Assembly: GCA_030272155.1 (NCBI GenBank)
Contig: CP126194.1
Span: 4,207,501 to 4,271,500 of the forward strand
Source of the DNA: Tetradesmus obliquus
Taxonomy: Eukaryota; Chlorophyta; Chlorophyceae; Sphaeropleales; Scenedesmaceae
Reading direction: 5' to 3'
DNA length: 64,000 nucleotides
Shown here: piece by piece, positions 120-63,400 of the stretch
Layout: the number at the start of each line of letters is the position of its first letter
How positions within the stretch are numbered: position 1 is the stretch's first letter
Notes under the pieces: model-generated
Database searches by the model: none
Seen by the model: the letters and a program-made list of their open reading frames with translations, nothing else
Told to the model about the DNA's origin: nothing
Made by a program: the position numbers and the translations under genes

Positions 120-2873
120 GACACGCTGCGCATTTGGGCTGAGCTGGGAGCAAAGGACCCGGAGCAGTTGAAGCAGCTGCTGGTCAAGCGCTCCATGGCG
201 CCGCTCACAGCGCTGGCAGCGCAAAGCGTGCTGGACTTTGTGGCATGTGGAGGTGAGCCAAAAACTGCAAGCCGCACCCTTGGACAGCAGATGACAGATG
301 ACAGCGTGTCTGGCAGCAGCAAGACTCCTCAGTGCGTGTGGTGCCTGGGCTACCGCGCAGCGGACAGCAGTCAGCAACCATGCTGTGCTGCGTATCTCAG
401 GCTCACCTTGCAAGGATAAAACAGCACGAATTGTTTAATGGTCCATCCCATAGCCTGCATGCATCATTTCCTATAAGATAATCAAGCTAAGTGTGAACAC
501 TTGCAATGCGCACTGTGCAGGCGGCTTCTACATTGGCCGCATCTCCAGCCAGGCTGACTTTCCTGGAGCTATCCTCATCAGCCTGGTGGGATACTTCTTC
601 GCGTGCTACTACTTCCTGCAGGTGAGCGCTTGGATGTCAACCTGCCAATTGCACAGACGTTACGCTGCAAGGCATTCTCCATGAGTGTGCTGTACATAGT
701 ACCTGAATCTAGGGTTCGCGTTCATGCTGCCAGTTTGCTGGGTAAAAGCAGTATGCTTGCACATAACCATGCCTAAGCCATACACAGTATTATAAATGCA
801 TGTGTGGTTTGCAGTCAAGCTCTTACAACTGTAATTACAGTGTGTCAGCTGTGCACCTGGCAGCTGTGCACTGCATCACAGCAGCGCCCTGCTGACCACG
901 GCCTGCTTGCACCGCCCTGCAACAGGCTGCATTCCAAATCACTGCTCTCACCAGCCTCAGCATGGCAGCACGCCGCTACTCCACAGATGCTGCCGTGCTG
1001 CTGGAGGCTGTGCGGCAGCTGGCTGGACCGGCCAGTGGGCTGTCTGTGGTCGACTCGGCCACGCTGGTGGTTAACACACTCAAAGTTATCCAAACGCTGG
1101 AGAAGATTGGGGAGCAGCTGCAGGTGCGGCTGCAGGACTGATGGACTGTGGGTGCGCCTACATATTGTGTGGTCAGTGAATCCCAACCGCCAGCAGCGCG
1201 CTTGAGCCTGACGGATTGTGGGGGCTTGGTGATGTCTGTGTGCCTATTGCCGCTTCCCTGGCCGGCGCCGCTACTGAGCTGTGTGTGAGTGACTCGACAA
1301 CGCTGGGGTCAGCACACTCAAAGTTATTCAAACGCTGGAGAAGATTGAAGAGCAGCTGCAGGTGCGGCTGCAAAGCTGTGCATTGTGTTTAGGAATGCTG
1401 CCCCAGGAAGTTGCTTTGCGTGCCTTGACACAGTGTTGTTGAGGACCATCTTTACAGACGCCTTGCACTGGTGCTCACAGGACACCCCATCATCTTACAA
1501 TCAGACTGTTTGGCAGCAGATCATGCAGCAGGAAACCATGATCTGCAGCAGTTCATGTACCCGCTGCTGCCGGTATCCACAAACTGCTTGTAGGACATCA
1601 CGGCCGGCGCCAGCAGCCTGGCCAACCTGTCTGCCTACCTCACGCTGCAGCGGGCAGAGGAGGTGTATGGCTTCCAGCCTGACAAGTACGGCCTGAGCGA
1701 GGCGCAGGCGGCTGACATCGCGGGCGTGTTCAGCCGCTACGATACGAATGAAGATGGCAGGCTGGAGCAGAGCGAGCTGCGGCAGCTGTGGTGAGCAGTA
1801 GAAACAGTGCATGACGTCATGCGCAATGCGTGCTGCACCAGGGCGTGCTACACTGAAGAGTACGGGCGGCTGGGCAGAGCGAGCTGCGGGGGCTGTGGTG
1901 AGCGAGGAATGCGGCTGAGCCAGCCAGGGGCTGGCTTGTGGCGTAATGTCAGCAAAAGTGCTCGGTAGTGCTGGCGGCGTATCCATTTGCATGCTGGTTG
2001 TGCGCAGTGAAGCAGGTGATGTCTCACAAGCGATGGGATGGCGACGCTCTTAACGTTGAAGACTTACTGTGCAATGATGATGCATGCGTGCATGCAACTG
2101 CGCTAGCTGTACTACTTGCTATTCTGTTCAGGACTTGTGCTGTCGACAGCTTCCAGAGTGCTTGCCCGCTGTATTAGCAAGGGCTCACATCAGGGGTGCT
2201 GCTGTTCTTTGCCTGTGTGTGCCTGCGTTGCTTCCCTGCTGCAGCTCGCAGCTGGGCAGTGACATCAGTGAAGCAGAGGCCAAGGAGGCGGTGCGCATCC
2301 TAGACAGCGGCAGCACGGGCTACATACAGGTGCGTGTGGTCCTCTTTGACAGATGTAGTCCAGTCAGTCAGAATCAGCAAGCCCTGGTGCATGTTGTGTT
2401 GTGAGCAGTGGATGGTTGCTGCTTATCTCGATAGGTGTCACGACAGACAGTGTCCGCCACGGTAAGCAGTCTTATCGAATGTGGCCTCAACTGCCCGACC
2501 AGGGCATGGCACTGCTGACAAGGTGCGCAGCGGGACAGAAGGTGCTGGCTCAGCATTTTTGTGCACGACATCATTGATTGACACGCCAATGTTGCTGTAT
2601 CAATACCCCTGACACCAAGCCACATTTTCAAGGCAAGCAAGCATGCATGCGTCCCAGTCCCAGCATAACATTCAGCTTTTCTCCTGCAAGATGCATTCCT
2701 GTCTCCTGCTATGCCACCAACAGACACCATTCACGCAGCAGATGGCTTTGCTCACTTCTCTGCCTGCATGCGCGTTGCTGCTGTGCCTGCAGTTTGGCGA
2801 CTTTGTGGACTGGTACATGGGCAGGCGGCCCAGCAGAGAAGTGAAGGAGGCAGCGGCCAAGTCTTCACAATAG
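120..2873 (+). CDS. EF-hand calcium-binding protein, 3' part of gene
   Basis: Six exons join in phase: 120-252, 521-621, 926-1123, 1594-1790, 2245-2329 and 2793-2873 (stop TAG 2871-2873), giving 264 residues. The gene begins left of the window, because the first visible exon opens at an acceptor and no start is seen. The second exon encodes a hydrophobic stretch (GAILISLVGYFFACYYFLQ) that may be a membrane segment. Near the C-terminus lies a canonical EF-hand loop, DTNEDGRLEQSE, with Asp, Asn, Asp and a closing Glu at the ligand positions. A second, degenerate hand follows (LDSGSTGYIQFGDF), missing several acidic ligands. Ca2+ binding by the first hand is well supported by family knowledge. 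The overall role and compartment are unknown, and I do not recognise the N-terminal part. The intron after exon 3 contains a decayed copy of that exon's 3' end. Confidence 0.8.
1281..1375 (+). repeat. decayed copy of exon 3 end with its donor site
   Basis: This intronic stretch resembles 1045-1136, the last part of exon 3 of the EF-hand gene plus the first bases of the following intron. Both contain the run AAACGCTGGAGAAGATTG and end in GAGCAGCTGCAG followed by GTGCGGCTGCA, so the 5' splice site is duplicated about 238 bp downstream. The copy has substitutions and small length changes, so it is not a recent error. Confidence 0.8.
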
Positions 2874-3191
2874 GGCGGCAGGTTGCAGGAGCTGATGCCA
2901 ACAAGATGGCCTCTGTACATTAGACTCAGCGAGCCATGGCTGTGTTTGCAAGTTAAGACTTATTTTCGTCAAAGTGCGAGGTTCAAACGCGCCTGTCACA
3001 GGATGAGTCCTACCACTGCCAGTGGAGAGTCATGGCTGGCCAACCAACAGGCCCGGCCATCCGTGCATCAAGGCTGTTGCACTTTAAAGTTCTGCTGATC
3101 ACTTGGCGATGATGCCGGTTGCCTGCATGCGAGTGGTGCACAGGTGGACAGCACCTGCACCTCCGGACGATGAGCCCTAGTAGGGCAGGCC

Positions 3192-3196
3192 TGTAA
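3192..3196 (+). terminator. possible TGTAA polyadenylation signal of the EF-hand gene
   Basis: TGTAA is the usual polyadenylation signal in green algae. This copy lies 319 bp after the EF-hand stop, in otherwise gene-free DNA (2874-3366). The motif is short and can occur by chance. Confidence 0.3.
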
Positions 3197-3366
3197 CACC
3201 CTGGTCCAAAACCCTGCCGTGGCCAGCACTACTAGTGCTACTAGTTCTGAGAAGCCTCATTGTATCCAGACTCACCCATCACCGTGGAAACAGTTCAAAC
3301 GTTTTGGAGCGATACTTTGCAAAGACGGCGCAACTGTCTGCCGCAAATTGATCGGCAAACACATCG

Positions 3367-4231
3367 ATGCCGCCCGCACTCTGCTTCCTTACTGAGATCC
3401 CAGACGCAGCATGGGAGAGCCTGCTGCCATAGCTGATCAAGAACAAAGCAGCTGGAGCCGTAGCTCTCTGCTGCAGGCTGCTACGCAACCAGGTGCTGAG
3501 GGGCACAAAAGAGCTGTGCCTGTCCTTCGGAACCAACACAGCAGCAGCAGGATTGGACACGTTGCCAGAGCATTTCCCAGGCTGCAAGAAGCTGCGGATA
3601 ACTGTCAAGCAGCTGGAGCAGATTGCAGTGCTGTCAGCTCTTCCAGTGCTAGCCAGGTGGGTGGCAGGACTGCTGGAGCAGTGTTGGGTTAGTCAAACGC
3701 AGTATGGGCTCCTTGCTTGTACTATGCTTACCAGCATTGCGCTCAGGACGGCTGATGCATGCAGTGCTTCACTGCGTAACTGTTGGCACTGTTCAAAATG
3801 CTGCTTGTAGTGCTGTGTAGTGGTTGGAAGGCCAACATGATGCCTGCGCGCTTGTTTTGAGCCTGCTTCGTTGTGTGTGCTGCATGCAGGCTCCCCACTT
3901 TGTCTGAAGTGGTTCTGTGCCTGCCTCGCCATGACCCAGGCCAGCAAGAAGGTCGTGCTGCAGCCAACAGCTCACACAACGACTTGTTGCTGCTGGGCAT
4001 CGCCCGCGTGCAGCTTACTGCCCTGCGCAGTATTGTCATTCACGCGGACAGCTGGGTTGGCAGTGGAAGCGCCTGGGAAAGTCTTGGCAGGATGACACAG
4101 CTGACAAAGCTGTACGTTCAGTTCAGCCACAGGTTGCAGGAAGCACTCACGCTGCAGCACTTGTCAGCACTGCAACCGCTGGGCAACAGCTTGCAGTCAT
4201 TGGCGATTGTGACAGCCAACGGAACGCAACC

Positions 4232-4267
<36 letters not shown>

Positions 4268-6911: not shown

Positions 6912-9502
6912 ATGCAAATGGCCAGCAGTGCTCGACGAAGCGTGGAGTCGGAGCAGCTGCTTCAGGGATGGATAAAGCTCGAGGCAGATGACTTCTCTGC
7001 AACTGTGTCAGCCAAGTGCTTTCAGGGCGAGAACGCATCTTCTGTACTTGCCAACCTTGTTGAGTTGGAAGCCAAGTGCTCGGGGTCAGACCCTCCTGTA
7101 GTCCGGCTAGACTGCTCACCTGAAGTAGCAAAGGAAGTAGTGGCCGTGCTGAGGCAAGGCAGCAGGTGTGGGCCAAGAGACAGCAGCAGCTATGCTATTG
7201 CCAGCTAGCCCTAGCTGCAGCGGACAATTGCAGCTGACAGTACAGATGCCGACATATACAATGCAGCCAGAGGATATGGAGCACTTTTGTCAACTGCCTA
7301 CACTGAAGCACCCACACAATCTAGTAATCTAGGACATGCTTGCTGATCTTCCTCAGGCTGTCCTTGCATGGTGTCCCAGCTGAGCCCAGCATTTAGGGAG
7401 TAAGCTTCAGGATGCTTGTTACTGCCCCTCTTCTAAACTAGAGAGGGGGGAGGTGGGTTGGTCAAATTGGCAAAGATGGAGATCGTGACTAGCGGCCAAT
7501 TGAAATGCCGCAAATTGTGGCGGCCAACTTCAGGCTGAGGTGCAGGCGCTGCAGCAGGCGCTGTTCGTGTCAAGCAAAATTTTTGCAAAGTGCGAAACAA
7601 TTGTGAATCGCAACTGCAAGCCATTGATTGCAGGCATTGCTCACCAGTGACGTTTGCCACGTCCTGCTTCCGATCTTAGTAGTAAGTAACCGCTTACATG
7701 ACGCCCTGCTGCCGCAGATATGTGCCTCCCGCCGAGCCGCGCCTGCTGCGTGCGCTGCAGCAGCAGGTAGATTACCTCGGCATCTCAGCACCCAGCATCC
7801 CCACAGCCTCCAGCCTAGACAGCCGCGAGGTTTTACTCATACCCTCCTACTGGTACCTAGGGCTTAATGATGAGCTGGACCCCAACGTTGACGTGCTGGA
7901 GGCAGGCTGCCTCATGTACAGCAGCAGCAGCAGGGGCTGGGCCAACTTGACCGGCAAGGCAGACCCGCGGCCGAATGATGTGCGCGGGCAGACGCTGCAC
8001 CCGCACTCGGGAGGCGGCTGCTGGCTGGCGAGCGTGCTGCGTGCAGAGAGCACTGGGGCAGGTGAGCACTGGGGCACTGGGGCAGGTGAGCACAGAGGCA
8101 CTGGGGCAGGTGAGCACAGAGGCACTGGGGCAGGTGAGCACAGAGGCACTGGGGCAGGTGAGCACAGAGGCACTGGGGCAGGTGAGCACAGAGGCACTGG
8201 GGCAGGTGAGCACAGAGGCACTGGGGCAGGTGAGCACAGAGGCACTGGGGCAGGTGAGCACAGAGGCACTGGGGCAGGTGAGCACAGAGGCACTGGGGCA
8301 GGTGAGCACAGAGGCACTGGGGCAGGTGAGCACAGAGGCACTGGGGCAGGTGAGCACAGAGGCACTGGGGCAGGTGAGCACAGAGGCACTGGGGCAGGTG
8401 AGCACAGAGGCACTGGGGCAGGTGAGCACAGAGGCACTGGGGCAGGTGAGCACAGAGGCACTGGGGCAGGTGAGCACAGAGGCACTGGGGCAGGTGAGCA
8501 CAGAGGCACTGGGGCAGGTGAGCACAGAGGCACTGGGGCAGGTGAGCACAGAGGCACTGGGGCAGGTGAGCACAGAGGCACTGGGGCAGGTGAGCACAGA
8601 GGCACTGGGGCAGGTGAGCACAGAGGCACTGGGGCAGGTGAGCACAGAGGCACTGGGGCAGGTGAGCACAGAGGCTTGGCCAAGGTTTAAGCAGTGCTGG
8701 CTTGCAGGAATGCAGAGCAGTGCCCTGCAGCAGGCAGCAGCCAGTAGTAGCAGAGGCAGCAGCAGAAGTTCTGGAGTGTGTGGTGGTGGTTTGGTGCAAG
8801 CCAGCAGAGAGCTGATATCACAGGGGTTGCAGCCGTTATCGTGGTGTGAGATGGGCGTTGCATCAGCGAGCTGACCTGCAGCGCATCAGCAATACACTGG
8901 CATGCACAGGACACTGCATGAGCAGCTGCAGCGCATCAGCAATACACTGGCATGCACAGGACACTGCATGAGCAGCTGCAGCGCATCAGCAATACACTGG
9001 CATGCACAGGACACTGCATGAGCAGCTGCAGCGCATCAGCAATACACTGGCATGCACAGGACACTGCATGAGCAGCTGCAGCGCCGCTCTCTCTTCCGTA
9101 GCAACAGGGCACCCAGCTGTTGCCTGTCTGTGCTGCTATTGTTGCTGCTGCTGCTTGCAGGAGAGGACCTGGTGTTCATGGTGCCCAACAAGATCCAGTC
9201 CTCGCAGCGCTACGGCGACACGGCAGCAGTGCTGCGCGCCAGCCTCAGCAGCAGCCGCATTGCGATGCCGCCGGTGCACAAGCGCATGGGAGTCTCAGAC
9301 AGCGCCATGGCAGCAGCACAGGTGTGGCGCCGCGAGCTCGGCGCTGGTTTCGCAGCAGTGGGAGGCTGGCCTGCTCTGGATGCGTGCCTGCAACAGCGCG
9401 CAGGCGTCCAAGCCATTCGACTTGCATGGAGGAAAGACACGGCTTTTTATAGCTACCAGAGCACTGTTGCCTGGCCAAGGTGCTGTTGAGTATGCTCAAC
9501 CA

Positions 9503-9544
<42 letters not shown>

Positions 9545-14222: not shown

Positions 14223-17200
14223 ATGGGCGCTGCACAGTGGGTGACCCTTCAGGCCGACAGCTACGAGGTAAGCGGCAACGCAACGCCTGCACTAGCACAA
14301 TTCAAATAATAGTAACGCCGAGTAACGCAGCTTCGCTCAGCAATCAATGCTGGTAGCGTCCAGGGCAGCTGTGATTTGGAGTGCACAGTGCTGCTGCTGC
14401 TGCTGCTGCTGCTTCTTGGCCGTCAAACTTCAACATACAGACATAACCTCACTGTGGCTTATTTGCACACGTATGCCTGTTCCCGGCGTGCTTGTATGCT
14501 GCTGCGGCTTGCCACTGCAGGCCAAGGTGTCTGTGGCAACGCTATGTGCCTACCCTGATTCATGCCTGGCCAACATGGTAGAAATGGAGCTGGCCAGCTG
14601 TGCAGCAGATCCTGCTGCAACTTATCCATGCATACGGCTTGACTGGTGAGCAAAAGCGCCTCGCCGTCTGCGGCTGCGCAACCTAGTGTGGCAGCGCTGT
14701 ACTGCTCGCCTGGTCCCTTGCAGATGCAGCAACATGAGCACCAGGAACCTCCGCCGACCATCCTGCAAGTGCACACCTGCTGCCTCATTCATGTAGCAAG
14801 CATCCCAGCTGTTTCCTGCAAGCCATGGCACCCCATGCTACCACTCATCCCCAGCACCCACCCGCTGCACACTCTCACAACACTGCGTACACATCTTCAC
14901 ACATGCAGCTGTGAGTCCGTTGCGCGTGAGGTAGTGGCGCTGCTGCGCCAGCGCGACAGCTACAGCCCTCCCACAGATGCCCGGCTGCTGCGCGCGCTGC
15001 AGCAGCAGCTGGACTTTTTGGGGCTGCCTGGCCCCCAGGTGGTGTCTGGCCAGGAGGTGGTGCTGGTGCCTAGTTACAGGCTGGAATCAATGCTGGATGG
15101 AGCGTCCTGGGGTGAGGCAATTGTGCTGTTTAGAAGCAGCTTGGAATAGCTTGAGAAGTATGTTTGCAGGCATTGCTCAGCAGTCGGCAGGGCGATGCCG
15201 CAGCTAGGCAGCACTCAAATCTAAGGCTGGCAGGGGCGAATGCTTGACAATCGTCCAGTGTCACACTGGCAGAAGATGCTGCCTAGGTCTTGTTACATAT
15301 GCATCCTACCAGCACCACCAGCAGCAGCAGCATCAGTGCCTGATAAGTGCGCTGATATTGGCCGCTTTCTGCTGGCGTTTACAGGGCGCCATGGCATGTA
15401 CATATACAGCAGCAGCACGCGGGGCTGGGCCAACATTGCAGGGGACCAGGACTGCAGGCCAGCCAAGATGCAGGCCAACGGCAAAGCAGGCAGTGGGCTG
15501 GTGTGCTGCGCGAGCACGCTACGCGCCGAGCGCACAGGAGCAGGTAACAGCAGCAGCAGCAGCAGCAGAGCTAGCCATGAGCACGCGTTGGCCTTGTGGC
15601 TGCCTCTTGGTGTGGATTGCGCACAGTGCCGCATGGAATGCATGCAGCAACAGGCAACGACCTGCTGTCTGTGCATTGCTTAAATGTAGAATGCTGTGCT
15701 GCCCTGGTTAAGAGAGGAGTAGTCACAAGTGTTTCAAAGTCATTGCCTTGCAGTTGTGCGTTTGCGTGTTGCCAGCCATCATCATCCGCGCTGCGGTGTC
15801 CCGCACTACAACAAGGTAGAACAGCAGCTGCATTGCCTTGCACTGTGCACTCACTAGACTGGCAGCAGTCTAGCACTTGCTGTGCTGTCTCCTTTCTTGC
15901 TTCGTGTCACACTGCGTCACACTTTGTGCCTGGCTTCTTCCTGCACTGCCGACCCGCTGCTGCAGGCCAGGACCTAGCAGTGGTAGTCACAAACAGCTGG
16001 CAGGACAACGCAACAGCGCTCATGATAGACTCTACGCTTGGATGCAAGCAGATCCGCAGCCCTCTGCAGCATACACTGGTAGTTAACAGCGCTATGGCAG
16101 CAGCTGGTGGCAAGCTGTATCTACTGGGTGGGGAGCGGCACCCACATGCTCTGCTTGACGCTGGCACCCCTTTTGAAGTGTACGACCCGCATGTGAGACA
16201 AGCTGCTTGACAAAAGGTGTAGCAAGGTTGCAGGGTTGCATGACAACAGCTTGCATGCTAGAGCACTATATGCAGCGCTGCTACGTGTAAGCTGATCAGC
16301 TGACCTGGGCGGTTGGGTGTGTGTTGTCCCAGCTGGCACCACGTGCAATACCCGTGCAAAGCAACCATATGTTTGACCTACTGCTGCGTGCGTGCTTGAT
16401 CATTGTCATCATATCTGGCGGAAAGCATTGCAGCTCATACCATCTAAGATGGTGCCAGGACCCACATGTAACTATCCTTAACTATCCTTAAGAACAATTG
16501 CAGCTCTTGGTGCTGTCCCTGGCGAGCTTGCCCTGCTGCCGCCGCTGCTCGATACAAAGTGTCAACGATGGCGCTGTTGCGGGTGCTGCCTGCAGGTGAA
16601 TGCGGCGCTGTGCTGGCACTGTCCGATCTGCGCCCCGCTGCTGCTGCTGCTAATGATGATGATGGTGCTGCTGCTGCTGCCTCTGCTGCTGCTGCTGGTG
16701 CTGCCTGCAGGTGAACGCCTGGCACCAAGCGCAGGCGCCGCAGCTGCCAGGCGGCTGCATCAGCAGCCATGCCCTGGTGAGCAACCGCTCGGAGGGGTTA
16801 CTGCTGGCAATCGGTGGTTACAACAGCGACGAGCGCACTGCTCTCGCCAGCGCTTCGTCTCATGTGCTGCTATATGATGTGGCGGGTGGCAGCTGGCGTG
16901 TGGATCCAAGCGGCTGCATGTACCCGGGTGCAGGCAGCGAGACCTGGGCAGCTGCTGCGGTGGACGACCACGCCGTTATGGTGCTGGGCAGCTCCAGTGA
17001 CGGCACATCAGCTAGAAATGATCTGCTGGATTTGAGGATGTGGCGTTGGAGGGACGGCTGCGGCTTGTTAAATGACATGACACATAACATAGGGCTGGTG
17101 ATGTATGAAGGGCGGGCGCTGGCAGTTGGCGGCAGGCAGGCGTACGCTGACTTTGATTCAGAGGGCGTAGCGATGCCGAGTGCCACGCGCAAGGTGCGCG

Positions 17201-27060: not shown

Positions 27061-27860
27061 GGGGCTATCACAGCGGTGACACTGATGGCGAACAGGTGCT
27101 GGCTTGCGAAGGCGCTCGCATGCGGTTGTGAAGTTTTAAAGCGAATGTCGTACTAAGAGAAGGCAAGCAGGATGGCGCTGCTGCACCGGTAGCATTAGCA
27201 AAGCTGCATAGCACCCGCATGGCCGAAAACCCCATCCACGGTACCTGACGGGAGTGTTTGTTGCGTTCAGCAGGTTGGCTAACATGTTAAGAAGACAGGC
27301 TCTGATGACAGCAGTAACAAGTGTCTGCACAACACCGAACGCTGAAGCTGCACGCCAAGGTTTACTCCTTGATCAAGCTCATGCAGGCACATGCCGTGAT
27401 GGGCATGTTGAGAACAGGAACGAAGTCGACGAATACGAATGAGACCAAATGAAGGATGTCCTTGCATGAGTAATAATGAAGACAATCGGCATACCATCCA
27501 ATGATCTGCATGCTGGTGCTCTGCAAGTCCTAGAAAAGCGTGCACACACACAGCCACATCACATTGCTGACACAGCAAAGCACAAGTGCCACTGCAGTGC
27601 TTGCTTCATTTCCCAGGGTGCCAATACGTATAAAGTACTCAATCAGCAACGTTACATCTTGTGCACACGCTGCTATGAGCTGGATGCTGACCTACAAGGC
27701 AGATGTCGCCACAACCGCTGCCACACTGACTGGCAACATCCCAACCTCCAATGGCTTGACTGACAACATGACGATGATGATGACCAACCGTCGTATGCCG
27801 TGCCTCCTGCGCACTAAGCGACCTCCCCTTGCCCAACAGGCCGCACGTGCATCGCCCTGC
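27061..27860. other. intergenic, no supported gene
   Basis: A plus-strand frame over about 27476-27763 has a suggestive Cys pattern (CHCSACF and CTRCYEL) but no other support. The right part runs into the repeats downstream of PSME4. Confidence 0.4.
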
Positions 27861-27863
27861 TGC

Positions 27864-28250
27864 ATCACACAAAGTAGCTGGCGCTGCTGGTGACGCACCA
27901 TCACACCAAGTGGCCCATCGTCGCCCAGTACGCCAAGCGTGCGACCACTCGCTCAATGAATGAACCGCCCTCACACGAAGGCCGGCGCTGGCAGCAGCCA
28001 TTCGCCTGCCAGCCAACAGGCCGCACGTACATCAACCCGCTCCATCACACGAAGTAGCTGGTGACACACGAGCAAACCAAGCAGCTGACCCTTCCCCAAT
28101 GCGCCACGCGCATATTGACCACGCCCGCTCACACGTAGTAGCTGGCCCTGCTGGCGACATCCCAACGGCCGGCGCTCACCCAGCAGGCTACGAGCGTGAC
28201 AACCCGCTCCAACGCAGCCCATCGCACGCGCTCACACGAAGTAGCTGGCG
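27864..28250 (-). repeat. degenerate tandem copies of the PSME4 stop-codon region
   Basis: On the plus strand a block beginning TCACAC(G/A)AAGTAGCTGG and often continuing CGCTGCTGGTGAC recurs at about 27864, 27971, 28044, 28129 and 28232. The spacings are 107, 73, 85 and 103 bp. The block at 28232 is the authentic end of PSME4 (read on the minus strand: ...SSASYFV, stop). The others lie downstream and carry diverged copies of the same terminal codons and stop. Confidence 0.75.
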
Positions 28251-28900
28251 CTGCTGGTGACCTGTGCCAGCGCCTCCCAGCGCTCCTCACCCAGCAGCGC
28301 CCGCAGCTGCTCCAGCGCGTCCTCCTCGTGCGTGCGCTTGAACTCGCTCAGGGCCTTGCTCGCATCACGCCGCACCTGAAGCAGCAGACAGGAGACACCA
28401 GCAGACAGCATTTTCAATTCGCAAAAGCACAGAGAGAACGCTCAGCGCCGTGCTGGCGCCACAGCGCACCTGGCAGGCGGTTGTGGACAGCTGTGCAGCA
28501 GCAACCAAAAACATCACCGACAAATAGGCAAGCAGACAGCCAGCGCCCTCACCAATGGGTCCCTGCTGTTGGCAGCCGCAGCCGCAGCTGATGCTCTCAA
28601 CACCCGCCTCCCGGACAACCATCTGCAACCACCACTTACGTACAAGTATAAGTATGCAGGCCGCCCCACCCTGAGAGAAATTTGACCACGCACACAAAGC
28701 ACAGCCAGCGTCTCACCAGCGGGTTCCTGCTGTTGGCTGCCGCCACCAGCGCCAGCAGCACCTCAGGCATCCAGCCTGGCACGTCATACGGGCTGCTCAG
28801 CACAAACGCCTTCAGGCCCTGAACCACAGCCTGCGCCTCCGCCAGAAACACCGGACCCTGCTGCGCTGCAAACGCCGCAGCGCCTGCCGCATCCAGCTGA

Positions 28901-33900: not shown

Positions 33901-36900
33901 AAGCGCTTCAAACACGCCAGCAGCGTAGGCACAGCAGACCCCCTCACGCCTGCATTCGGCTGCATCGACAGCGCCAGCAGCTCCACAAACAGCGCCAGGT
34001 ACTCCTTCGGCAGCTGCTGCAGCCGCACAGCGCCAGCTGGCGTTGCAGAGCCAGCAGCAGCCTCGCCAGGTGTCACTGGCTTGCTGCAGGGTGACGCCGG
34101 CGGCGCTGCTTTCGCAGCTGCTTGCGCGCAGCGCCACAGCAGCATGCGGCGCAGCCTGTCCATAACAGCCATAGGGGAGGTGCGGCGCCGCCAGCGCCAC
34201 TCACTACCCCAGCTGCCAGCCGCCGGCCTGCTGCTGCTGCTGCTTGGCTGCATTGCAGCGTTTGCTGACTCATCGTCCTCTGTGCCAGCTGCTGCAGCGG
34301 CCCGTGCTGCTGCTGCTTCTGCATGCACGCGTGCTTCCTCTTTCATCAAGGCCCCTACAAAGCCACCGTCAGATCCATCCCCTGCTGCTGCTGCTGCTGC
34401 TGCTGCTCTGCCAGCCAACACCTCAGCAGCAGCTCCCTCACCGCTGCTGCTGCTGCTGCTGCCCCACGCCAGCAGGTACGCTGTCGCTGCTGCAGGCTCG
34501 TCTGTGATCGCGCCATCATCCTTACCCCCTGACCTGCCCTGCCCGCCAACTGCCTGCTCTAACATCCCAGGTGACATCAGCAGTAGCGAGGTGTAACTCG
34601 CCTGTTCTAGCAACTCCCTGTCCCCTCCCTGCAAGTGCCGAATTGCCAAAGTCAGCGCAGCCGCCACGCGGTTGCGCACACCCGGCTGCCCTATGGGGCT
34701 CGCGCAGCCGCCAACAACCTGCAGCACATTTGCTGCAGCAGCTGCTAGCTCAGCATCATCCTCATCTGCACCACCTGCTGCCGCTGTTGCTGCTGCTGCT
34801 GCTGCCTCTTCGGCTGCTGAGGGTGCCACGAAGCCTTCAAAGTCCCGCAGGCGGCTCATGAGGCCAATCACAACAGCTGCCATGCTGGCCAACAGGCCTC
34901 TGCACTGCGTCCTGAATGCAAGCGCGTCCACCTGCTCTGACCCCTGCCCTCCGCTGCTGCCAGATTCTGCAGCTGCTGCTGTGGCTGAAGGATTCGCGCC
35001 GCTGCTGCTGCTGCTGCAGAGCTGTGTCAGCTGCCGCGCGCCCTCCTCCAGGTACTTGTCAGCGAGGCGCGCAGCGATGGCGGTGTGCTCCTCTGATGGC
35101 AGCGCCCACCTGCAGCATGCATGTAAAATTGAAGTCAGTCTGGGTATAGATGATTCAATGTGACTCGACTACTACTACAGCATGCACGTCCGCGCATGCA
35201 TGTGTGCCAGCGCCAAAACAGGTGGCAACCACAGCGTGAGGCACGACGCAGGTGGCGTCAGCCAGGGGCACCACGAGACACACAACCACCACAAATGCCA
35301 ACACCACCCAGCTCAACCGCCAGTGATACTCGCATAGCATCCGCTTTCGCTCCAACACAATACAGCGCACCCATATCGCCGTTTCAATGAACAATATGTT
35401 GCAGTGTTACCGCTGCAAGGTGTGCTTCCTGCAATTCTTCACACATCGCAGCATGCCGCTCACCCGGGTGCGCTCCAGCCCACGCCCTGCCTGTCCACCC
35501 ACAGCTGCAGCCCGTTTGGCAGCAGCATCCCGCCCGTCTGCGGCCAGGCGCGGTCCGGCACGAACCAGCCGCTGAGCACGCCCAGCAGCGAGGACAGCAC
35601 CATGCTGGCCCAGTTGTGCGCCACGCGGCTCGGCAGCTGCACGGGTTTGGTGAGGCAAGGCAGGAAGGCAGAAGGCAAAGAGCAGGGTAAGTTAGCCACA
35701 AGGGAGCCAGCAGTGTCAGTTGTGCGCCACGCAGCTCGGCAGCTGCGCCGCGATTGGGTGGGGAGAAGCGGTACGGCGACGGGAACCCCGGAAGACAAAC
35801 AGTGTACGCGAGCCACAAGCATGCCACAGTGGTATGTGGCAGGGCACTGAGAAAGGGTATGTGCAGTGCTACTCGAGCAGTTGCTTGAGGGCCTATGCTG
35901 CGCAAACCAGCAAAGCAGCTGCAGACAGTGCATCAGCAGTTTTGTAAAGGCTGAACTGCAGCACCAGACAACTTGATGCCTTGCACCTTGAGTGTGCCGT
36001 CCACCAGCGCCTCCAGGCTGGGCACCAGCAGCCACAAGGCTCCACCAACACATGTAGGCCCCACCGACATATGCATTACGACTCACTGCATAGAATGCAA
36101 CCAGATCTGGCACAGCCCACAGCGTGATGCGTCCTTTGTTGACCAGGAAATGTTTTGAGAATTCACACCTTGAGTGCGTCGTCCACCAGCGCCTCCAGGC
36201 TGGGCACCAGGGGTGCAGCCACGGCCGGCCGCAGCCCGCCCACCGCACTGCCCAGTAGCACCAGGCTCCAGGTGAGGCTGTCCTCAGTCGCCCGGGACAG
36301 GCTGCGCGAGCCTGCGGCATAATGAGTTGAGAGGAATGTGCGTATACATACAGGTTTACTTTCCGCCAGCGGCAAGGCCAAGGCCAAGAATCCAGAGCTT
36401 GCCAGGCAATCCCAGCAGGCCATGCCGACTGCACACGATAGCTGACGGCGCAGCGCAGCAGACACTGGTTTTCAGCGATTGCTGCTCGAGACATGCAAGT
36501 ATGACAAGCACCAGACGGCAAAGTAGAAGGACGAGCAACACAAAAACAGCCGTAGTCGCACCTGTCTCAGGCATTTGTGCGCGTATGCGTGCCACCAGCG
36601 GCTTGACCACCAGCTCCACGGCAGCAGCGGGCCGCGCGATGCTGGCGCTGCGGAACATGCTGGCTGCCTCCAGCGCCACGGTGGGCAGCGCACGCTCTGC
36701 AGGCAGCGCAAGAAGATGGATGAGTAAGCAATGCACAAGAGGCACAACCAAGTCAGCAGTGCCTCACAGCAGGCAGCTCAAATGGACATGCATCATTCTA
36801 CATCTGACGCAACTCTCCAACTTGATGTAATGAAAGGCAGCAGAGCGACGCAAGTCGCGTGCCGCAGGTTTCTGATTCGGCGTGATTTCAAGCCCGCGCA

Positions 36901-42593: not shown

Positions 42594-45500
42594 ATGCAGC
42601 AGCTTGTAAGCAGATCAACTCTGCTACTACAAAGTTCTTTTAGTCTGCTGCATGGAAACTACGCCCGCTCGGTGAGCCGTAGCCTGGAACTTGGAGGGCT
42701 GTCCTCCTCAGCTGCCCAGTCAGCAACCCTGCTGCTGATGATGCCACTAAATGCCTCTGCAGCAGCTTTAGCACCCACCGCAGTTGTTTTCGTTCCTGCA
42801 GGTCAGCACTCTTGTAGTGGTGGAGCACACCTCAGGCAAGGTTGCTGCTCCAACCTTGAACACAGTGTTAGCAGCTTCGCAGCTAGGAGGCGATGTGACA
42901 GCGCTCGTGGGCGGCAGTGGGGTGCAGGCTGTGGCAGAGCAGGCATCAAACATCCCGGGCGTATCCAAGGCAAGTTGGGAAGGCTGCAAAGGAACATCTG
43001 CTCCTGTAGCTGTGTTCATCAAGCAAGTTGTGCGGAGTCCTCAGAGACCCAGCATAACCATTGGCCAGCAAGGCTGAAGCATAGCTCTGCATACTACTGC
43101 GCCGTCAATGGTTGCGCAACCCACTGATTCAACCACCTGACATGTGCTCACAATGCACGCGCCTGGCGTGTGTGCTGCAGGTCCTCATGGCTGACACTAA
43201 ACCCCTAGAGCACCAGCTGGCAGAACCCTACTCGCAGCTGCTGGCAGCGCTGCAGCAGGCGCACAGCTTCAGCCACATCATCGCGCCTGCCTCCACATTC
43301 GGCAAGAACCTGCTGCCCCGGGCTGCAGCGCTGCTGGATGTGCAGCCTGTAGCTGACGTTGTGCAGGTAGTGGGAGGCAGCATAGCGGAAGTAAGTGGCG
43401 GCAGCCACCAGCAGCAGCAGCAACAGCTGTGCAGTTGGGAGCAGCGCATTGCGGTTGGCTAGGGTGCAGGCTAGGTGTCAGGCGGCAGGCATTACTGCGC
43501 GCGCTGCTGCTGCCGCTGTGTGCGCAAGCCGTACTGTACTGCACCGATGCACGTGCATGCCACCAACGAGCATTTTGCGATGCACAACATGACCTCATCT
43601 ACATCTCATCGGCTGAAGAATCCAGCACTGCCGAAGCGCTACCCGCTCAGCCTGTGCTGTGTGCGTGACTCCCGCGCAGATGGTGGACAGGCGCACGTTT
43701 GTGCGACCCATCTACGCAGGCAATGGCATGGCCACAGTAGCGGTGGAGCCTGGCCAAAAGCTCATCATGGCAACAGTAAGCCTGCTGCTGGAGCAGCATC
43801 ATCAAGGCCTGTTGAAAATGAGCGTAGGATCATCATACACGGCAGTGACAGCTGTTTTATGGCTGGTTTCTTTCTAGTACAGCATGCCCGCACCTCAACG
43901 CACATCAGAGGGCAGTGCACAAGTGTTGCTAGGTCCTGGCGTGTGCAGATGTGTCAGCCAGGGTTGCTGTTCACGAGAGCTGCTGGAATGTATGGCACTG
44001 CCCCAACCCAGGGTGTGCCTAAGCACTCACCATGCACAGCCACGGCAACAGTTTGTTCGCTGCATGCATGCTGAAGTGTGCTGGGCTGCTGCAATTGCTT
44101 GCAGGTGCGGCCGACTGCATTCGCTCGCGCCGAGGGGGCGCGCAGCGGCGGGGAGGCACCTGTGGAGGCAGTGCCTGAGCAGGTGCTGGCAGCAGCAGCA
44201 GCGCCAGACACGCCCAAGACCACTTGGCTAGGTGGGAATTGCCGCGATATGCCAGTCTCTTTCAACAGTGCATGGTCAGGTTCTGAGTCACTCCCGCTTG
44301 CTCACAGCCACAACCAGCAGAGTTGCACAGCTTGCATGACTGCAGTCCGAGCAAGTGCCTGCGGAAACCCGTTTAGTGGTACACACGGATCTTCCAAGGC
44401 CCACAAAGCAAGCTGACACTGCCTGTCCATGCATTCGTGTCTGCAAGCAAGCAAGAGGCCTAGGCAGAGCCCTGGTTAACGCTGCGGAGCCCCATCCAGC
44501 CATGCAGCTCTTTCTCGTGTGGCCATACTGCTGATTGTCATCTGCCTGTCCATGCGCACGTGGCTGCAGGCAAGCACGAGGCCAAGTCAGAACACCGTTC
44601 AAGCATTGGGAACCCCATCCAGCCATGCCGTTCCTTGTGATGTGGTTTTGAATTGCCAGCTGCCTGTTGTTGCGTCTGCAGGCAAGCACGAGGCCAAGGC
44701 GGAGCGCCCCGACTTAGGCTCTGCGCGTGTGGTGGTGTCGGGCGGTCGCGCGCTCAAGTCTGCGGAGGGCTTCCAGCACCTGGAGCGGCTGGCTGACCTG
44801 CTTGGGGGCGCAGTAGGGGCCTCACGCGCAGCAGTGGATGCTGGATACGTGCCAAATGACCTGCAGGTAGGTGTGCTGATTTTGTCGAGTGATTTGATGA
44901 AGAGTTGCGGTCGGTGAGTGTTGAGCAGGGTGAAACAAAATGGCGGAGGTTGTGTGTGGCGCTGGCTGTACTGGTACGCTTGAGCAGTACTGCCAGGGTT
45001 ACGAACGGCGCTGGTGAGTTGCGTGCCCTGTTGGCAAAAGCCTGCAAAGGCCATGCCCCACCCACTCCTGCCACCACAGATGAGTTGTAGCCTGTGTAAC
45101 CCATGCAGCCTATGTAGCTCATCCTGCTGGCTGTTGTAACCAACATAACATGACATAATCTTGTGCTGCCTGCCTCCCCACTTTGCACCCCAGGTGGGCC
45201 AGACGGGCAAGGTGGTGGCCCCGCAGCTGTACATTGCTGTGGGCATCAGCGGCGCCATCCAGCACGTGGCTGGCATGAAGGACAGCAAAGTGATCGTGGC
45301 CATCAACAGCGACCCTGATGCGCCCATCTTCCAGGTGAGGTCAAAGGCATTGTGGTGATTTTGTTGTTGCGTGCATGCATTCACACTGCAAGTGTGTTGG
45401 AGTGCCGCTCGTGCAGCTATGCTGGTGTGCAGACTCAGGTTGGCTTTGCTGCTGAACCGGCATGCCAGATGCGGGGTTGAGGCATCACCATGGCCATCAA

Positions 45501-45780
45501 CAGCGACTCCGACACGCCCATCTTCCAGGTGAAAAAGCTGCACGGCGCGTTACTTTGTCTGTCATCGGTTGGTGTTCTTGCTTTGATCTGCTGTGATGGA
45601 CGCATTGAATTGCTTCAACTGCAGCTTTGTTGAAGTGCACCATGACATGCCTTGCTGCTGCTGCTGCTGCTGCTGCTGCAGCTGGCTGACTATGGCCTGG
45701 TGGGTGACCTGTTCAAGATCCTGCCGGAGCTGGAGGCAGCCGTCCGGGAGATCAAGGCACAGTCAGCAGCAGCACCTTGA
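42594..45780 (+). CDS. ETFA: electron transfer flavoprotein alpha subunit
   Basis: Mitochondrial FAD protein that, with the beta subunit, passes electrons from acyl-CoA and amino-acid dehydrogenases to ETF-ubiquinone oxidoreductase. Eight exons join in phase: 42594-42671, 42802-42969, 43181-43390, 43680-43775, 44105-44231, 44682-44866, 45194-45334 and 45682-45780 (TGA), giving 367 residues. The first exon gives a Ser/Arg/Leu-rich N-terminus ([16 protein letters not shown]) typical of a mitochondrial transit peptide. The mature N-terminal domain begins [18 protein letters not shown] and contains [10 protein letters not shown]. The C-terminal FAD-binding domain has the family signature [13 protein letters not shown] and [19 protein letters not shown], ending [15 protein letters not shown]. 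Intron 2 (42970-43180) has a GC donor (AAG/GCAAGT). Introns 5 and 7 hold decayed copies of neighbouring exon edges. Confidence 0.95.
44421..44700 (+). repeat. three tandem copies across the ETFA exon 6 acceptor
   Basis: Units of about 120 bp begin TGCCTGTCCATGC at about 44420 and 44542, and TGCCTGTTGTTGC at about 44661. The last contains the true acceptor (exon start 44682). The second has the same junction, CTGCAG then GCAAGCACGAGGCCAAG, at about 44570. The first copy is more decayed. Shared filler (AACCCCATCCAGCCATGC) confirms tandem origin. Confidence 0.85.
45480..45537 (+). repeat. decayed copy of ETFA exon 7 end with donor
   Basis: ATGGCCATCAACAGCGAC followed shortly by CGCCCATCTTCCAGGTGA repeats the end of exon 7 (about 45293-45340) and its donor, about 195 bp downstream in intron 7. 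The codons still read [15 protein letters not shown], so the copy stays open through the duplicated part. Confidence 0.88.
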
Positions 45781-48365: not shown

Positions 48366-48401
<36 letters not shown>

Positions 48402-49638: not shown

Positions 49639-49674
<36 letters not shown>

Positions 49675-55005: not shown

Positions 55006-57194
55006 TCACTCTGTCAGCGCCTCATCCGGTGACACCACCAGCAGCGCAGCAGACGCAGCCGGCAGTCCAATGTTGTAACTGCAAGGCTTCCCGGCAAACA
55101 GCTGCGGCCGCACCGCAACCTGCTCCACGGCATTCTGCAGCTTGCCGGTGAAGCCGGAGTTCTCGTAAGTCTGGCCCTGCCACGTGATCCCGCCCTTGCT
55201 GAAGATGCCGAGCCGGCCCGGCAGCATGCGCGAGAGCGAGGCCTTGTTCGAGCAGAACTTGGAATCGACACGCACGTCGACGTTGCAGGGCTTGTCGACG
55301 TCCTTGTTGATGAGCGCGATGCGCACGTCACCGCCATCCGACTTGAGGGCATACACCTGCGTGAAGCGCAGGGACGCAAATAAGTTGCAGAGGCGTTGCC
55401 GCAGCTTCAACAGCATGTGGGTGGACAGCAAGCTGACTCACCCGCCAGCGTCTGTAGAGCATTTTGAACTGCTGACATGCCTGTCACAAACACCTGATGC
55501 ACAGCCGCTGCCCCACAGCACCCAGCCACGCCTGCCCGCCTGCCCACCTTGATGTTGGCAGCGCACTTGTCCCAGCGCTCCACGTTGGCAGCCACAAAGC
55601 TTGTGTCTGCCGCCTTGCCGTAGCCGCCCGCGCTGGCCAGCGTCCAGAACAGGTAGCCGTACCAGGGGGCATGCACGCTGGGGTAGGGCCACGGGTCCTG
55701 ACCAGCCTGCAGCAGATACAGGTGGTTGAGGCAGGTGGTTTTGGCAGCAGATACGGGTTGTGAGACAGCAAAGCAGATGCGAGCCAGGGGCAGGACATCA
55801 GACGTGGATTTGGTGGGCATTGGAGCGCCACTGGCAGCACCACAGGATGTGCTTGCCTACCAGCAAGTGCAGTGCAAGCAGTATACGCCAAGCAGGCCTG
55901 CTGGTGGTTGCCAATGCACACACAAGAGGTGCCCGCGTTAGCGTTACGCCATGCATTGGCCAACCCTGCATAGCTCCTTGCAGTGTTGAGAATAGGCTCA
56001 TGAGTTGCAAGGAAGCTCACCTTCAAGATGAAGTTGGTCTGCACGCCCACGCTGGGCGGGTTGTCGCCATTGGGCTGGCCGCCGTTGCCCCAGTGCAGGT
56101 GGAAGGACAGCGCGCCGGCATTGGCAAACGCAAACAGCGCGTCAATCGTCCAGAAGGCACCTACCATGGTGTCACTCAGCCCCACGCGGCCGCCGCCATA
56201 CCTGCAACATCATAGAAACACAGGTATGCTTGTGACAATGCACTGGGATCTAGCTCGGCTGCATTCCTGTTGCAGTATCATTGAGTGAGTGCAGCTGCAA
56301 CAGCTGTAGAAGCTACACCTTGACCTGAAAAGAGAGCCCCATTCTGCCATGGCACTGACTGCAATGGGCAGCATTCAGTACAGCTGCCAGATGCAGTGAA
56401 GCTGCAAACATCAACTTGCTGCACGTACACTGCGCGCTGGCGGTACATGCCGACCTAGGGCACTAGACACAGGCAGCTGATGCTGTCTGTCACTGCTGCT
56501 GCTGCTGCTGCTGCTGCTTCACACAGCACTGCGTCTCACATGGAGTTGTCTCGCTGATGCACACAGGCAGGCAGGCCTGCTTGCCTTGACGTACAGCAGT
56601 ACACCCCAATCCTGGGCACACTGCACAAGCTGCCGCTCCTGCTGCTGCCGCTGCTGCTGCTACTGCTGCTGCTGCTACTACTTACATGGAGTTTGTCTCG
56701 CTGATGCGCACAGGCAGCCCTGCCTTCTTTGCAATGCCCACGTAGGCCTTGAACTTGTCGAGCGCAAAGTCCTGCAGCCACTGGCTCAGCAGCTCAGGCG
56801 CAGTCACGGTCTCGTTGTTGATGTAGGGGCTGCAGGGGTCGGCAGCAGCAGCAACAGCAGCGAGAGCAACAGCAACATAGCCGTTAGTGTGAAGGTTGGC
56901 AGCAGCGTCGCGCCCTGGTGGCGCACAACATATTGCATGGCAGCGACCTGTGGCTGCTGCTAGCTCCATGAGAGGATATGAGAGGATATGCATGCTGCGT
57001 TTGTTGTGTCTCGCGCTGCTGCTGCAAACCGCAGAGAGGCCTCGCAGCTGCTGCAGCCGCTGCATGTGCTGCTGGTGTTGCTGCTGGCAGAGCTGTCCAC
57101 TCACTAGTAGTGTGTGTTGGCCTCCCACAGGTAGCACTTGCCAGCACCCAGCACCTTGGCAAACCAGCTGGGGTCCTGAGTGTTCACGTTGCCT

Positions 57195-57226
<32 letters not shown>

Positions 57227-57658
57227 CGGGTTCGGGCAGTCAGGATGACACTTGACCAGTAAGCATGCAGTTTATGGTTTTGCAAAAGGCTGCTTTGCAC
57301 ATGGCAGAACTGTTTGACGAGCGCTGCCATGCACATGCCGCCGCCGTCATTCATCATGTCAGCGGCCTGCCTACGCCGGTGGCAACAACAACAAACATAC
57401 CGCCTCACTGCATGTGGTTGCGCAGGGCTATATGTATGATTTTACTGTCATGGACTTGAATTCCATGCAAATTGCTGCAGTACTGCTGCTGGCCCCTCAC
57501 CCCATCCAGGCCCTGACAGTATGGGCTTGCCGTCAGAGCAGGGGTTGAGCGCGGTGGCCACGCGGTGGAAGTAGGCGGCATACGCCTCAAAGCCAGACTG
57601 CCACTGCCCCTTCTCATCATAGCCGCCCAGGCCAGTGGGCCAGAACTCCGGCTACGGC

Positions 57659-57691
<33 letters not shown>

Positions 57692-58236
57692 GATGTAGTC
57701 AAAGATGCAGAAGCATGTGCAGAGCCTGCCACTGGCCCTTCTCATCATAGCCGCCCAGGCCAGTCGGCCAGAACTTCTACTACGGCAGCAGCAGCAGCAG
57801 CAGCAGAGCGTAGTGCCGGGTGAAGGAATGTTGTGTGATCTCTGCAGATTGACTAGGAATAGGAGCTGTAGCTGCCCCAGCTACCGCCTTACAGCTGATC
57901 TCAAGTGATTTCAGGGGCCTTGTGCTTTGTAGTGGAGTTTCTGTTGTTTTTGCTGCTGCTCCTGCTGCTGCTGCTGCTGCTGCTGCTACAAGGTGGTGCT
58001 GAAATCCAGCTGCAAGTGCTCCTGGCAAGAGTTTCACAACTGCTGGTGTTCCTGCTCCTGCTGTGGCTGCTGCTGCTGCTGCTGCTGCTGCTGACCCCGC
58101 GCTCACCTCATTGCCCAGCTCGAAGCCCATGAGCGAGTCCCCGAGGTGCTTCTGCGCCTGATCAATGATGTGCCTGCCCATCTCCGCTGCATTCTTCTGC
58201 CAGAGCGGCAGCCCAATGATGAACCTGCAGCAGATA

Positions 58237-58268
<32 letters not shown>

Positions 58269-59209: not shown

Positions 59210-59250
<41 letters not shown>

Positions 59251-59751: not shown

Positions 59752-60464
59752 ACTTGCAAACGCCAAGAAACCAAAGAATAGACGTATGTAGGCGTTCAGC
59801 TATTGGATCGCTGCGCACCGTTTCCGGGGTACCAGAAGCACCCGCCAAAACTTGCGCGCTAGCTTGATCGTGCGATCTGCGTGCTTAAATAGTTCTAGCA
59901 TGCACTTCACAACAATACAGTGTCACAGATGGTCCGAAGCAGCCTGGCCACTGTTTGCAACAATGAGCACGGGAAATGACATGCTCGGCTGCGAGGAGAG
60001 TGCCATGTTCACGCGCCTGCTTCGAGCCCGATGCACGCAATAGTATCAACTGCTTCATATGACTTATTACGCTTTGCATCACAGACACTCGTGATGTTCC
60101 TGAACATCGCGGTTCAAACCGACCCAACGATCACGAAGAATGACCCACGCGTGTCGAGAGTGAGCGCGGCCATGCCCACTTTGCCAATTGGTTGACAAGA
60201 GGTCATCAATAGGCTTCAATTCTAGGCGACATCATAACAACGGTGCTGTACTGCACCAGCTGTCTCTACAAGGACCCAGCACAGCACTGCATGCATGCAT
60301 CATCGGGGCCTAAAGAGCGCAAGCAACCCTAGCAGTGCACTGACACCCCAACACCGCACACTGAACAATAGCAGGTCGATCTCGACTACAACTTTCTCCC
60401 TCACTGAGCGATTTGCCGGCCAGCAGCAGAATGCTGCGGCTTGTCGTTATCGCTGCTGCTGCTG
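59752..60464. other. intergenic between lipase 3' end and GH79 start
   Basis: About 710 bp separate two minus-strand genes. It should contain the lipase 3' UTR and the GH79 promoter. No TATA box or gene is evident. Confidence 0.5.
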
Positions 60465-63400
60465 CTACTGCTGCTGTCTCTGCCCGACAACCTGCTGCTT
60501 CACTCCTCGCAATGCTGCTGCCTCTAGCTCCTGCGCATAGCTGCCATGATGATGATCCAGCCAGTACTGAGCATACTTCAGCGGACTCACAAGTTTAGAC
60601 AAGGCAGCTCCGAAGCCTCCTGCCACACTGCTGCTGCTGCCTGCATCACTGGTAGCAGCAGCATCCATGAAGCTGCCTGCAGTGCTGCTGCTGCCGTCTG
60701 CTTTCCGGCTTTCACCAGGCTTGGGTGCCAGGAAGCTGAGCTCGGTCTCAATCTCGTGCGAGTCGAGGGGCACCACCTCTGAGCCACCTGCAGCATGGCA
60801 GACAGCAAGACTGTTAGGCGCATGCTTAGGTTGCAGCTTGCCTGAAAGGTGCTTCTGATGAATGACAGACGCGATATGACATGCAGCAAACGGCAACAAC
60901 GTATACATTTCATTTCCATGTTGCAGGAGCGCAGCGCATTGCAGAAAGAGCTGCCGCACCTCATATACTGGCATAACGCAGCCCAAACGCTGCATCAACA
61001 CACTCCAACAGCACCATAAACCATGATGCAGATGACTGCAAATAACCGCAGCGCCTCACCCTCTGGCGTCCACTTGATCAGGTGCACCTGCCCCACGCTC
61101 TCAAACAGGAAGCGCCCGGGGCTTAGCGGGCTGCCCTGCCCAGCCAGCAGCTGCCGCAGCTGCAGCAGGCCCTGCACCGCGCCCCAGCTGCTGAGCAGCT
61201 CAAAGGTGGGGTCCACAGACAGCAGCGCACGCGGCACGCTGCGGCAGCAGCAGCAGACAACAGTGTTAATTGCGGGTTTATGCAATACATGCAGCTCAAA
61301 GGTGGGGTCCACAGACAGCAGCGCACGGGGGACACTGCGGCAGCAGCAGATTTTAGTACAGAATGCAGCGACACAGTGACATCATGTCACTGTCATGTGG
61401 TGCTCCGTACAAACTCAGCATCGCGCCATCATCAATGTTTGTCATTAGTATGGAGCCATGTGCTGGTTCTTACTACACACAGCGGACAGGATTGCTGCTG
61501 CTTCAAACCAGCTCCAGCTGTAGCTGGTGCCCCTGCAGCAGCAGTCGGTCGTGCGTGTCGACATCAACTCAACCATGTGGCAGTGCCACACTCGCCAGCG
61601 CACCCAGACACACTCACGGGTCGTTTTCCAGCACAAAGTTCTTCACGCAGTCACTTGGCAGCCGCAGCGCCTGCAGCACGCGGTGGCCGCCACCACCCTG
61701 CAGGGCAGCAGACATCAAGGTCAAGCCAATATATAGCAGCACTGAAGCAACAGCAGCAAACTGGCCAATCTGTGTCTCGTGGCAGCAGGTTCATACGAGG
61801 GTGCAGGAGCGTGTGCAGCAGAGTGTGCTCGGTACTTCTGACAGGCTGGCAGCGCAACAAGACGTGCTCACACCATGGCAGTGCAACATGATTATAGTTG
61901 TCAGTTGTCAGCAGCTGCATCAACATTGACTGACTTATGTCCAGGCAGAGCCGCATGCGCTGCAGCTGCTGCCCACCTGCTCATGGGCCAGCACTGGTGG
62001 CGAGCCAAATGTGTAACAGCTGGGGCTGCTGCTGTGACGCCTGCACGCGGCAGCAACACAAATGAGCTTTGCCTAATTCAGCTGACATGGTTCAACGCAA
62101 CCAATAATCTGCCATGGCTGCAGGCCTCGCAGCATGTTTGCTGGTAGCGGAGGCTTGAATTGTGTTGGTCGACTGCTGATGATGTGGCGCAGGTGATGAT
62201 CTGCTACAGTTGCTGGTACTGCTGCTGCTGCTGCTGCTGCAGTTGCTGTGCTGGGAGCCTGCCACTCACCGCCTGCTCTGCAGCTGGTACTGCACCATGG
62301 TCAGCATTGCAAGCGATCCACCTGCGCAGTCAAGTCAAGTTTGTTTTCAAATCCTTGGCTGGCGAGCCATTGAGCAAATTTCAAACAGTGTGGCGTCCTG
62401 CGAACTTGCAAACACAGTAATGATGGGCAGTAACAGCTGCCAAGCATGACAACGTGCATTGCCTGCATGTGACATCTAGCTGTAGCACAGGCCCGGGTCA
62501 TACAGCAGCAGATGCAGCAGATGCAGCAGCAATAACTGCCCACCCACATCCCTACTATCACTATCTACACGCACCCAGGCTGTGTCCTGCGAAGCAAATG
62601 GGCATGCCCACGTCATCGGCTTGGTCAAAGTATGGCCGCAGCTGGTCAAACATTGACTCCGCCAGCTCAGCCACCCCGTCATGTGCCACAAGCGGCACAG
62701 CCCCAGCTGCTACTGCTGCTGTCCCTGCTGTGCCCTTGCCATTGCTGCTGCTGCTGCTGCTGCCAGGTGTTGCTGCAGCACTTGACGTGGCTGCATTGCG
62801 GGTCTTGGGCTGTATGCGTGGGAAGTGTGCGGGCCACAAGCGCATGAGCGCCTGAGACAGCTTTGTCTGCAGTGGCATTGACACGGGCAGGCGGGCAGCA
62901 ACAGTGCAGCAGACACGGGCAGCAGCTGCTCAGCGCACGACACTCTGGCAGCCAGGGTCATTTGAAGGCAGCTTTGCCATGCAGCCTATCCATGAGAAAG
63001 CACTAAACCCAACAGCTGGTCTGAAACCAGATGCGCAGTACAAAACGAGTCAAACAGCATGTTCAACCAACACTTGCTGCAAACCGCGTGCATTGTGCGC
63101 ATGTCAGGTGTGCTGCGGCACAATCTCTGTTTCCTTGCTGCAGCGCCACACCCACCGAGTCAACGTCCTGCGCAGACCACTGCACGCCCCGCATGAAGAT
63201 GAAGCGCTCGCGCCTGCCGCCAGGCACCGCACACGCATCAGCATCATCATCCGAGATGTGCCCGCCTCTGCTGCCGCCGTTGCTGCTGCTCCTGCTGCCA
63301 GCTGCTGTGCGCTGCCTGACTGTTGAGCAGAAGTGTGCATGGGGCACAACACCATCCACAATGAACCTGCAGAACACAAAACAACAGCAGCAGCAGCAGC

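Follow-up and report, generated by a model that had tools for sequence, protein, structure and literature searches.

Intron lengthening is usually ascribed to mobile elements. Small tandem duplications are another described kind of change; they are local and head-to-tail, and may originate at breaks with overhanging ends (PMC8355091). In vertebrates, repair-mediated proximal duplication sets copies ~1.2 kb apart on average, and in human 4 of 824 donors were partial exon/intron sequences (PMC2671141). In the potato RdRp gene a tandem duplication across an intron-exon boundary made a new intron (PMC4974935). Here we analyze a 64-kb stretch of the Tetradesmus obliquus genome (contig CP126194.1, C4, positions 4207501-4271500, strand +), hereafter referred to as the window, in which exon edges with their splice sites are repeated inside the adjoining introns. 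A preliminary description of the window had listed eleven such repeats.

The window was studied together with 200 kb of contig C1 and 50 kb of contig C9, with coordinates picked blind. This sample of 314 kb from three contigs is 0.3% of the genome (104,662,953 bases in 17 contigs). A gene finder self-trained on the sample and run without RNA predicted 65 genes with 294 introns (median 288 bp), CAG/GTGAG-like donors and TGCAG acceptors. The models matched hand reading at the junctions read, except at an array in the BTB-Kelch 1 gene and in the region past the PSME4 end. Each edge was aligned to its own intron, and matches with a score of at least 18 were retained. The test covered 292 introns and 584 edges, two of the 294 introns being outside the length limits. 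Copies were found for 56 edges in 48 introns (16%). Of these edges, 26 are donors and 30 acceptors (292 tested of each kind); 12 lie in the window, 26 in C1 and 18 in C9. Without C9, the counts were 39 edges and 34 of 254 introns. Both edges were counted in eight introns, and at least one pair (C1 38411 and 38090, both with period 217) is possibly a single event. All 56 copies were direct, inverted introns giving 0 matches in 584 edges. Other introns used as controls yielded 0.0 per 292 (score 18, 5 draws), and exon-interior segments 60-132 bp from the junction yielded 0/160 and 0/169. Thus, a comparison with control introns of the kind proposed in the preliminary description gave a clear excess in the sample (56/584 against 0), and the high frequency claimed there was borne out.

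A scan for local direct repeats with a score of at least 20 revealed 11 clusters in the window and 41 in C1. No local repeats with a score of at least 17 were found in five shuffled windows, compared to 42 in the real one, many of which come from two arrays. Recurrence of the pattern in the 200 kb of C1 and the 50 kb of C9 confirmed that the repeats are real and extend beyond the window. An assembly artefact, which had been named as a possible source, is unlikely for the diverged copies, which differ by 8% on average; it could still account for the near-perfect arrays at 8044-8675 and 8876-9084. As had been stated earlier, the copies lengthen introns: the median was 449.5 bp in copy-bearing introns and 270 bp in the others (p 6e-12), the medians thus being ~180 bp apart. 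Edge copies were denser in C9 (18 edges in 46 predicted introns) than in C1 (26 in 192) or the window (12 in 56), and density may differ regionally across the genome.

The size of the repeated unit was narrowly distributed. The period was 90-152 bp for 39 of the 56 edges (class of 80-160 bp: mean 122.7, standard deviation 16.0). Fifteen more edges formed a class of 160-300 bp (mean 213.9, standard deviation 27.3), two had longer periods, and none a period below 90 bp. Within periods of 80-160 bp the spacer fell with match length (rho -0.50) and the period rose weakly (rho 0.35); the period is therefore the steadier quantity. The exon part of the match usually exceeded the intron part, which suggested copying of edges only, a candidate weakened by the homology of the intron flanks. 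The flank beyond the copy resembled the flank of the original, with an anchored extension of 15.4 compared to 2.95 in permuted pairs (p 2e-12), and exceeded the permuted 95th percentile in 23 of 39 edges. Taken singly, the intronic half of the unit was significant in 31 of 54 testable cases; the other 23 flanks stood above permuted pairs only when pooled (p 8e-4 anchored, p 0.05 for the local score).

Matched edges differed at 8.2% of positions (228/2781) and clearly recognised flanks at 17.6% (389/2204), the latter figure covering alignable flanks only. A ratio near 2:1 is what neutral duplication expects when two freely drifting copies are compared with one. Differences at the first, second and third codon positions of 39 edges were 37/498, 28/501 and 74/497 (7.4%, 5.6% and 14.9%), as expected for free decay of the intronic copy. 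Together with the homology of the flanks, the codon pattern and the two-versus-one divergence suggest, as the simplest reading, a tandemly duplicated unit made up of an exon edge and adjoining intron, the intronic copy drifting freely. Very young copies (below 3% difference over a long match) were few among the 56 edges relative to those at 5-10%, which may mean that duplication was once more active.

We therefore consider it likely that tandem duplications of ~90-260 bp (mode ~120), arising or persisting mainly in gene bodies, lengthen introns and that the exon-edge copies decay neutrally. Such an event may stem from replication slippage or from the repair of DNA ends that are staggered or nicked. 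If the unit spans a splice junction, the intron would become longer by one unit. The outer splice site would still yield the same mRNA, and the change would be tolerated; use of the outer site was checked in the single case of ETFA, by protein alignment. The copy of the exon edge left in the intron would then decay neutrally. Edge copies would stay visible longer than intron-intron pairs because selection preserves their partner in the exon, whereas both members of an intron-only pair decay.

Several observations weigh against tandem duplication with neutral decay, in addition to the restriction of the 17.6% figure to alignable flanks. The intronic half is not significant singly in 23 of 54 cases (43%), while neutral simulation predicts 14-21%. 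More than 70 exon bases are included in 9% of cases, compared to the 33-45% predicted; a selective limit on long exon parts, a longer decoy being a stronger exon end, is a conjecture that we offer for this. Some copies are 94-97% identical without significant flank homology (10885 in C1, 36168 and 1790 in the window). Gaps per mismatch were 0.08 in matched edges and 0.44 in flanks, possibly a result of scoring. Weakly decayed copies were scarce below the threshold (25 in ~121,000 offsets compared to 12 in ~95,000 in the control), and with so little excess a large reservoir of older hidden copies was rejected. No breakpoint motif was found in the 56 aligned edges, whose unit boundaries are blurred by decay, and the narrow unit size is a further feature that this explanation does not account for. 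Conversion from the exon, later deletions or templated insertion might each lie behind these misfits.

At score 18 and periods of 80-300 bp, 67 clusters of local repeats were found: 38 edge/intron, 12 intron/intron, 8 edge/intergenic, 7 exon/exon and 2 intergenic/intergenic, where intergenic means outside predicted genes and takes in untranslated regions and missed genes. At score 16 the 65 clusters were distributed as 37, 12, 7, 7 and 2, compared to 13.9, 11.5, 3.3, 14.8 and 21.1 expected from uniform placement. Edge classes are thus in excess, and intergenic/intergenic pairs are ~tenfold too few (2 vs 21), a shortage that the neutral simulations do not account for. An intron-intron to intergenic count of 19 vs 2 (period above 60) was discarded as inflated by sub-hits of one cluster; in clusters it is 12 vs 2. 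The ratio of edge to intron-only clusters was 38:12 (3.2), while neutral simulations of intron-touching duplications gave 1.4-2.7:1; this version replaced one with a fixed indel rate for intron-only pairs, which gave ratios of ~1.5 or lower. There may be a modest preference for edges on top of what geometry produces, but geometry together with slower loss could explain nearly all of the excess of edges inside genes. The earlier suggestion of copying directed at exon edges was not supported in that form, since the intronic part is often homologous too and intron-only duplications of similar size are also present. In five duplications (starts L010:7351, L013:6728, L015:3901, L018:2130 and L020:4461) one member lies in a predicted terminal exon and the other outside the gene; these are gene ends or else introns missed in the prediction.

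Both the narrow size and the intergenic scarcity point to a specific process, for the study of which a compact genome is well suited. It is conceivable, though we doubt it, that a process confined to gene bodies and perhaps tied to transcription or splicing makes duplications of near-fixed size (~120 bp or about twice that) near splice junctions, with edges kept alike by conversion and introns growing in ~120-bp steps. Lengths of 257 introns showed no clear periodicity in 120-bp steps.

Another explanation that we regard as unlikely is that the tandem duplications are old, and that gene conversion from the exon keeps the edge copy similar while the intronic halves diverge. The 23 of 54 cases with a similar exon part, no singly significant flank and weak pooled flank similarity would fit it, as would the scarcity of weakly decayed copies and the EF-hand copy, which by hand count is ~75% identical far from the junction and ~92% near it. 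However, pooled divergence differs little between the near and far halves (7.4% vs 9.0%), and later large deletions could equally strip the flank.

Templated insertion at intron breaks, in which repair synthesis copies the adjoining exon edge and pastes it nearby, has a precedent in the proximal repair duplications of vertebrates (PMC2671141) and agrees with some high-identity copies that have no matching flank. We nevertheless think it quite improbable. A period steadier than the spacer and the many homologous flanks argue against it, and not one of the 584 edges had an inverted copy, while the vertebrate study describes an inverted exon copy (PMC2671141).

There is little probability that selection maintains the copies for use by the spliceosome, whether as spare splice sites or as alternative ends of exons. 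The splice dinucleotide is usually intact, as noted before, with 20 of 26 donor copies retaining GT and 26 of 30 acceptor copies retaining AG, yet this total of 46/56 is close to the ~47/56 that by our own reckoning is expected from 8% decay. Decoy donors scored 3.07 on average (median 5.39), compared to 5.11 expected for neutrally mutated sites and 7.10 for real ones; decoy acceptors scored 3.67 (median 5.62), compared to 4.21 and 6.33, respectively. Medians are thus near or above the neutral expectation and means below it, at most a hint that some decoys have been lost, with no clear sign that they are kept. The codon pattern is neutral over 39 edges, and several copies hold stops or indels. 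As the matched copies are also partial, they do not look like mutually exclusive or duplicated exons. The acceptor copy near 9755 of L008 (69755 in joined C1 coordinates) differs almost only at third codon positions (0, 1 and 6 differences at positions 1, 2 and 3), a point in favor of selection; it ends in a donor-like GTAAGC and could represent a genuine small exon.

Intron gain by AGGT tandem duplication and introner-type mobile elements are known to combine tandem repeats with splice sites (PMC3443670, PMC4974935), but for this sample can be set aside as highly improbable, since 0 of 294 introns had junctions repeated at an offset of their own length (score of at least 14; 1 vs 0 in the control at score 12), as the preliminary description had anticipated for AGGT gain, and no element is common to the inserted stretches of different loci. 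The underlying search of 56 inserts returned 15 rows, of which 11 involve C1_162635_D (17-25 bp, judged to be a CAG repeat) and 4 pair two edges of the same intron.

All eleven edge repeats listed for the window are present. Nine of them are among its 12 edges in the own-intron test; the BTB-Kelch 1 donor array and the BTB-Kelch 2 acceptor are the two outside it. To these we add a second EF-hand donor (1790) and several copies of the coding end of PSME4. Pfam matches back the EF-hand and Kelch genes, and GH79 matched only below the cut-off. No Pfam match was obtained for the lipase-like protein or the first 320 residues of the PSME4-like protein, which leaves the names given earlier to these two genes without support, and a PDB search with one PSME4 exon returned two weak, unrelated matches only.

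On the + strand, the EF-hand exon end at 1036..1134 (junction 1123/1124; exon part 88, intron part 11, period 239) has, in the own-intron test, an intronic copy at 1275..1372 with donor GTGCGG. The next EF-hand donor edge (1767..1796, junction 1790/1791) is copied at 1874..1903 with GTGAGC intact (period 107-108). The BTB-Kelch 1 donor edge forms a 24-bp array at 8044..8675, with CAG/GTGAGCA in the unit; its earlier estimate of 26 units agrees with the 26.3 copies given by Tandem Repeats Finder. By our reading, comparison with the paralogue (VLRAES..G, followed by an exon with EDLVFMVP) places the donor in the first unit. The gene finder miscalled this array as exon, hence its absence from the own-intron test. 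The same intron holds a perfect 50-bp repeat (4.2 copies, 8876-9084), and both arrays look very recent. The BTB-Kelch 2 acceptor 16710 has a copy 115 bp upstream (16573..16718; 16573-16603 and 16688-16718 are 90% identical over 31 bp) that includes only ~8 exon bases. In ETFA, the acceptor region at 44419..44708 consists of three tandem units with periods of 123 and 112, the true acceptor being 44681, and the exon end at 45297..45338 (donor 45334) is copied at 45491..45532 with GTGAAA. The joined ETFA protein aligns to solved structures, which we take to be the human and Paracoccus proteins, through both affected junctions, and at the donor it does so with neither gap nor insertion. In this gene the outer splice sites are therefore the conserved ones and the copies are intronic.

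On the - strand, PSME4 donor edge 28716 and its intronic copy (28536..28743) are the weakest case, with a score of 18. In the own-intron test PSME4 acceptor edge 35636 has a copy 106 bp upstream (35611..35746), and donor edge 36168 one 182 bp downstream (35984..36210). Past the last sure exon, diverged copies of the PSME4-like coding end (SYF/YV and stop) lie at 28229, 28126, 28045 and 27865 (27833..28261). Here the duplicated edge holds a stop codon, not a sure splice site, so duplications may touch gene ends besides splice junctions; two window edges, 28235 and 27859, depend on the doubtful gene model past the PSME4 end. GH79 donor edge 56685 is copied 147 bp downstream (56538..56710), and acceptor edge 57651 is copied 128 bp upstream (57595..57806), the copy starting with TAG. 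The acceptor edge 61238 of the lipase-like gene has a copy 96 bp upstream (61195..61349). CAG/CTG triplet runs are common throughout the window.

A step of lengthening that involves no shared element is seen in one-sixth of the sampled introns. With the exon as an unchanging reference, the size and neutrality of local duplication are directly measurable. The many natural introns with two near-identical splice sites should be useful for studying how the right site is chosen.

In titles and abstract openings of the open-licence literature we found no genome-wide report of this frequency or of a size peak at ~120 bp. Similar duplications have been described, but those found here look unusual in number and in the narrowness of their size, a judgement made from this one eukaryote genome. 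As in AGGT intron gain (PMC3443670), tandem duplication involves splice-site sequence. In that mechanism, however, the stretch between the copies would become the intron, with a length equal to the period, a pattern that was not seen here. Unlike in the potato RdRp gene (PMC4974935), existing introns seem lengthened, and no new intron was seen. As in vertebrate proximal duplication (PMC2671141), nearby copies can bring partial exons and splice sites into introns; pairs within 50 bp were dropped in that study to exclude tandem duplications, and its rates are not directly comparable with ours. Small tandem duplications (PMC8355091) share with the present ones direct orientation, close spacing and, here, neutral decay of the extra copy. 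They differ in being short insertions of less than 100 bp, while in T. obliquus periods start at 90 bp, have a mode of ~120 bp and affect 16% of the sampled introns.

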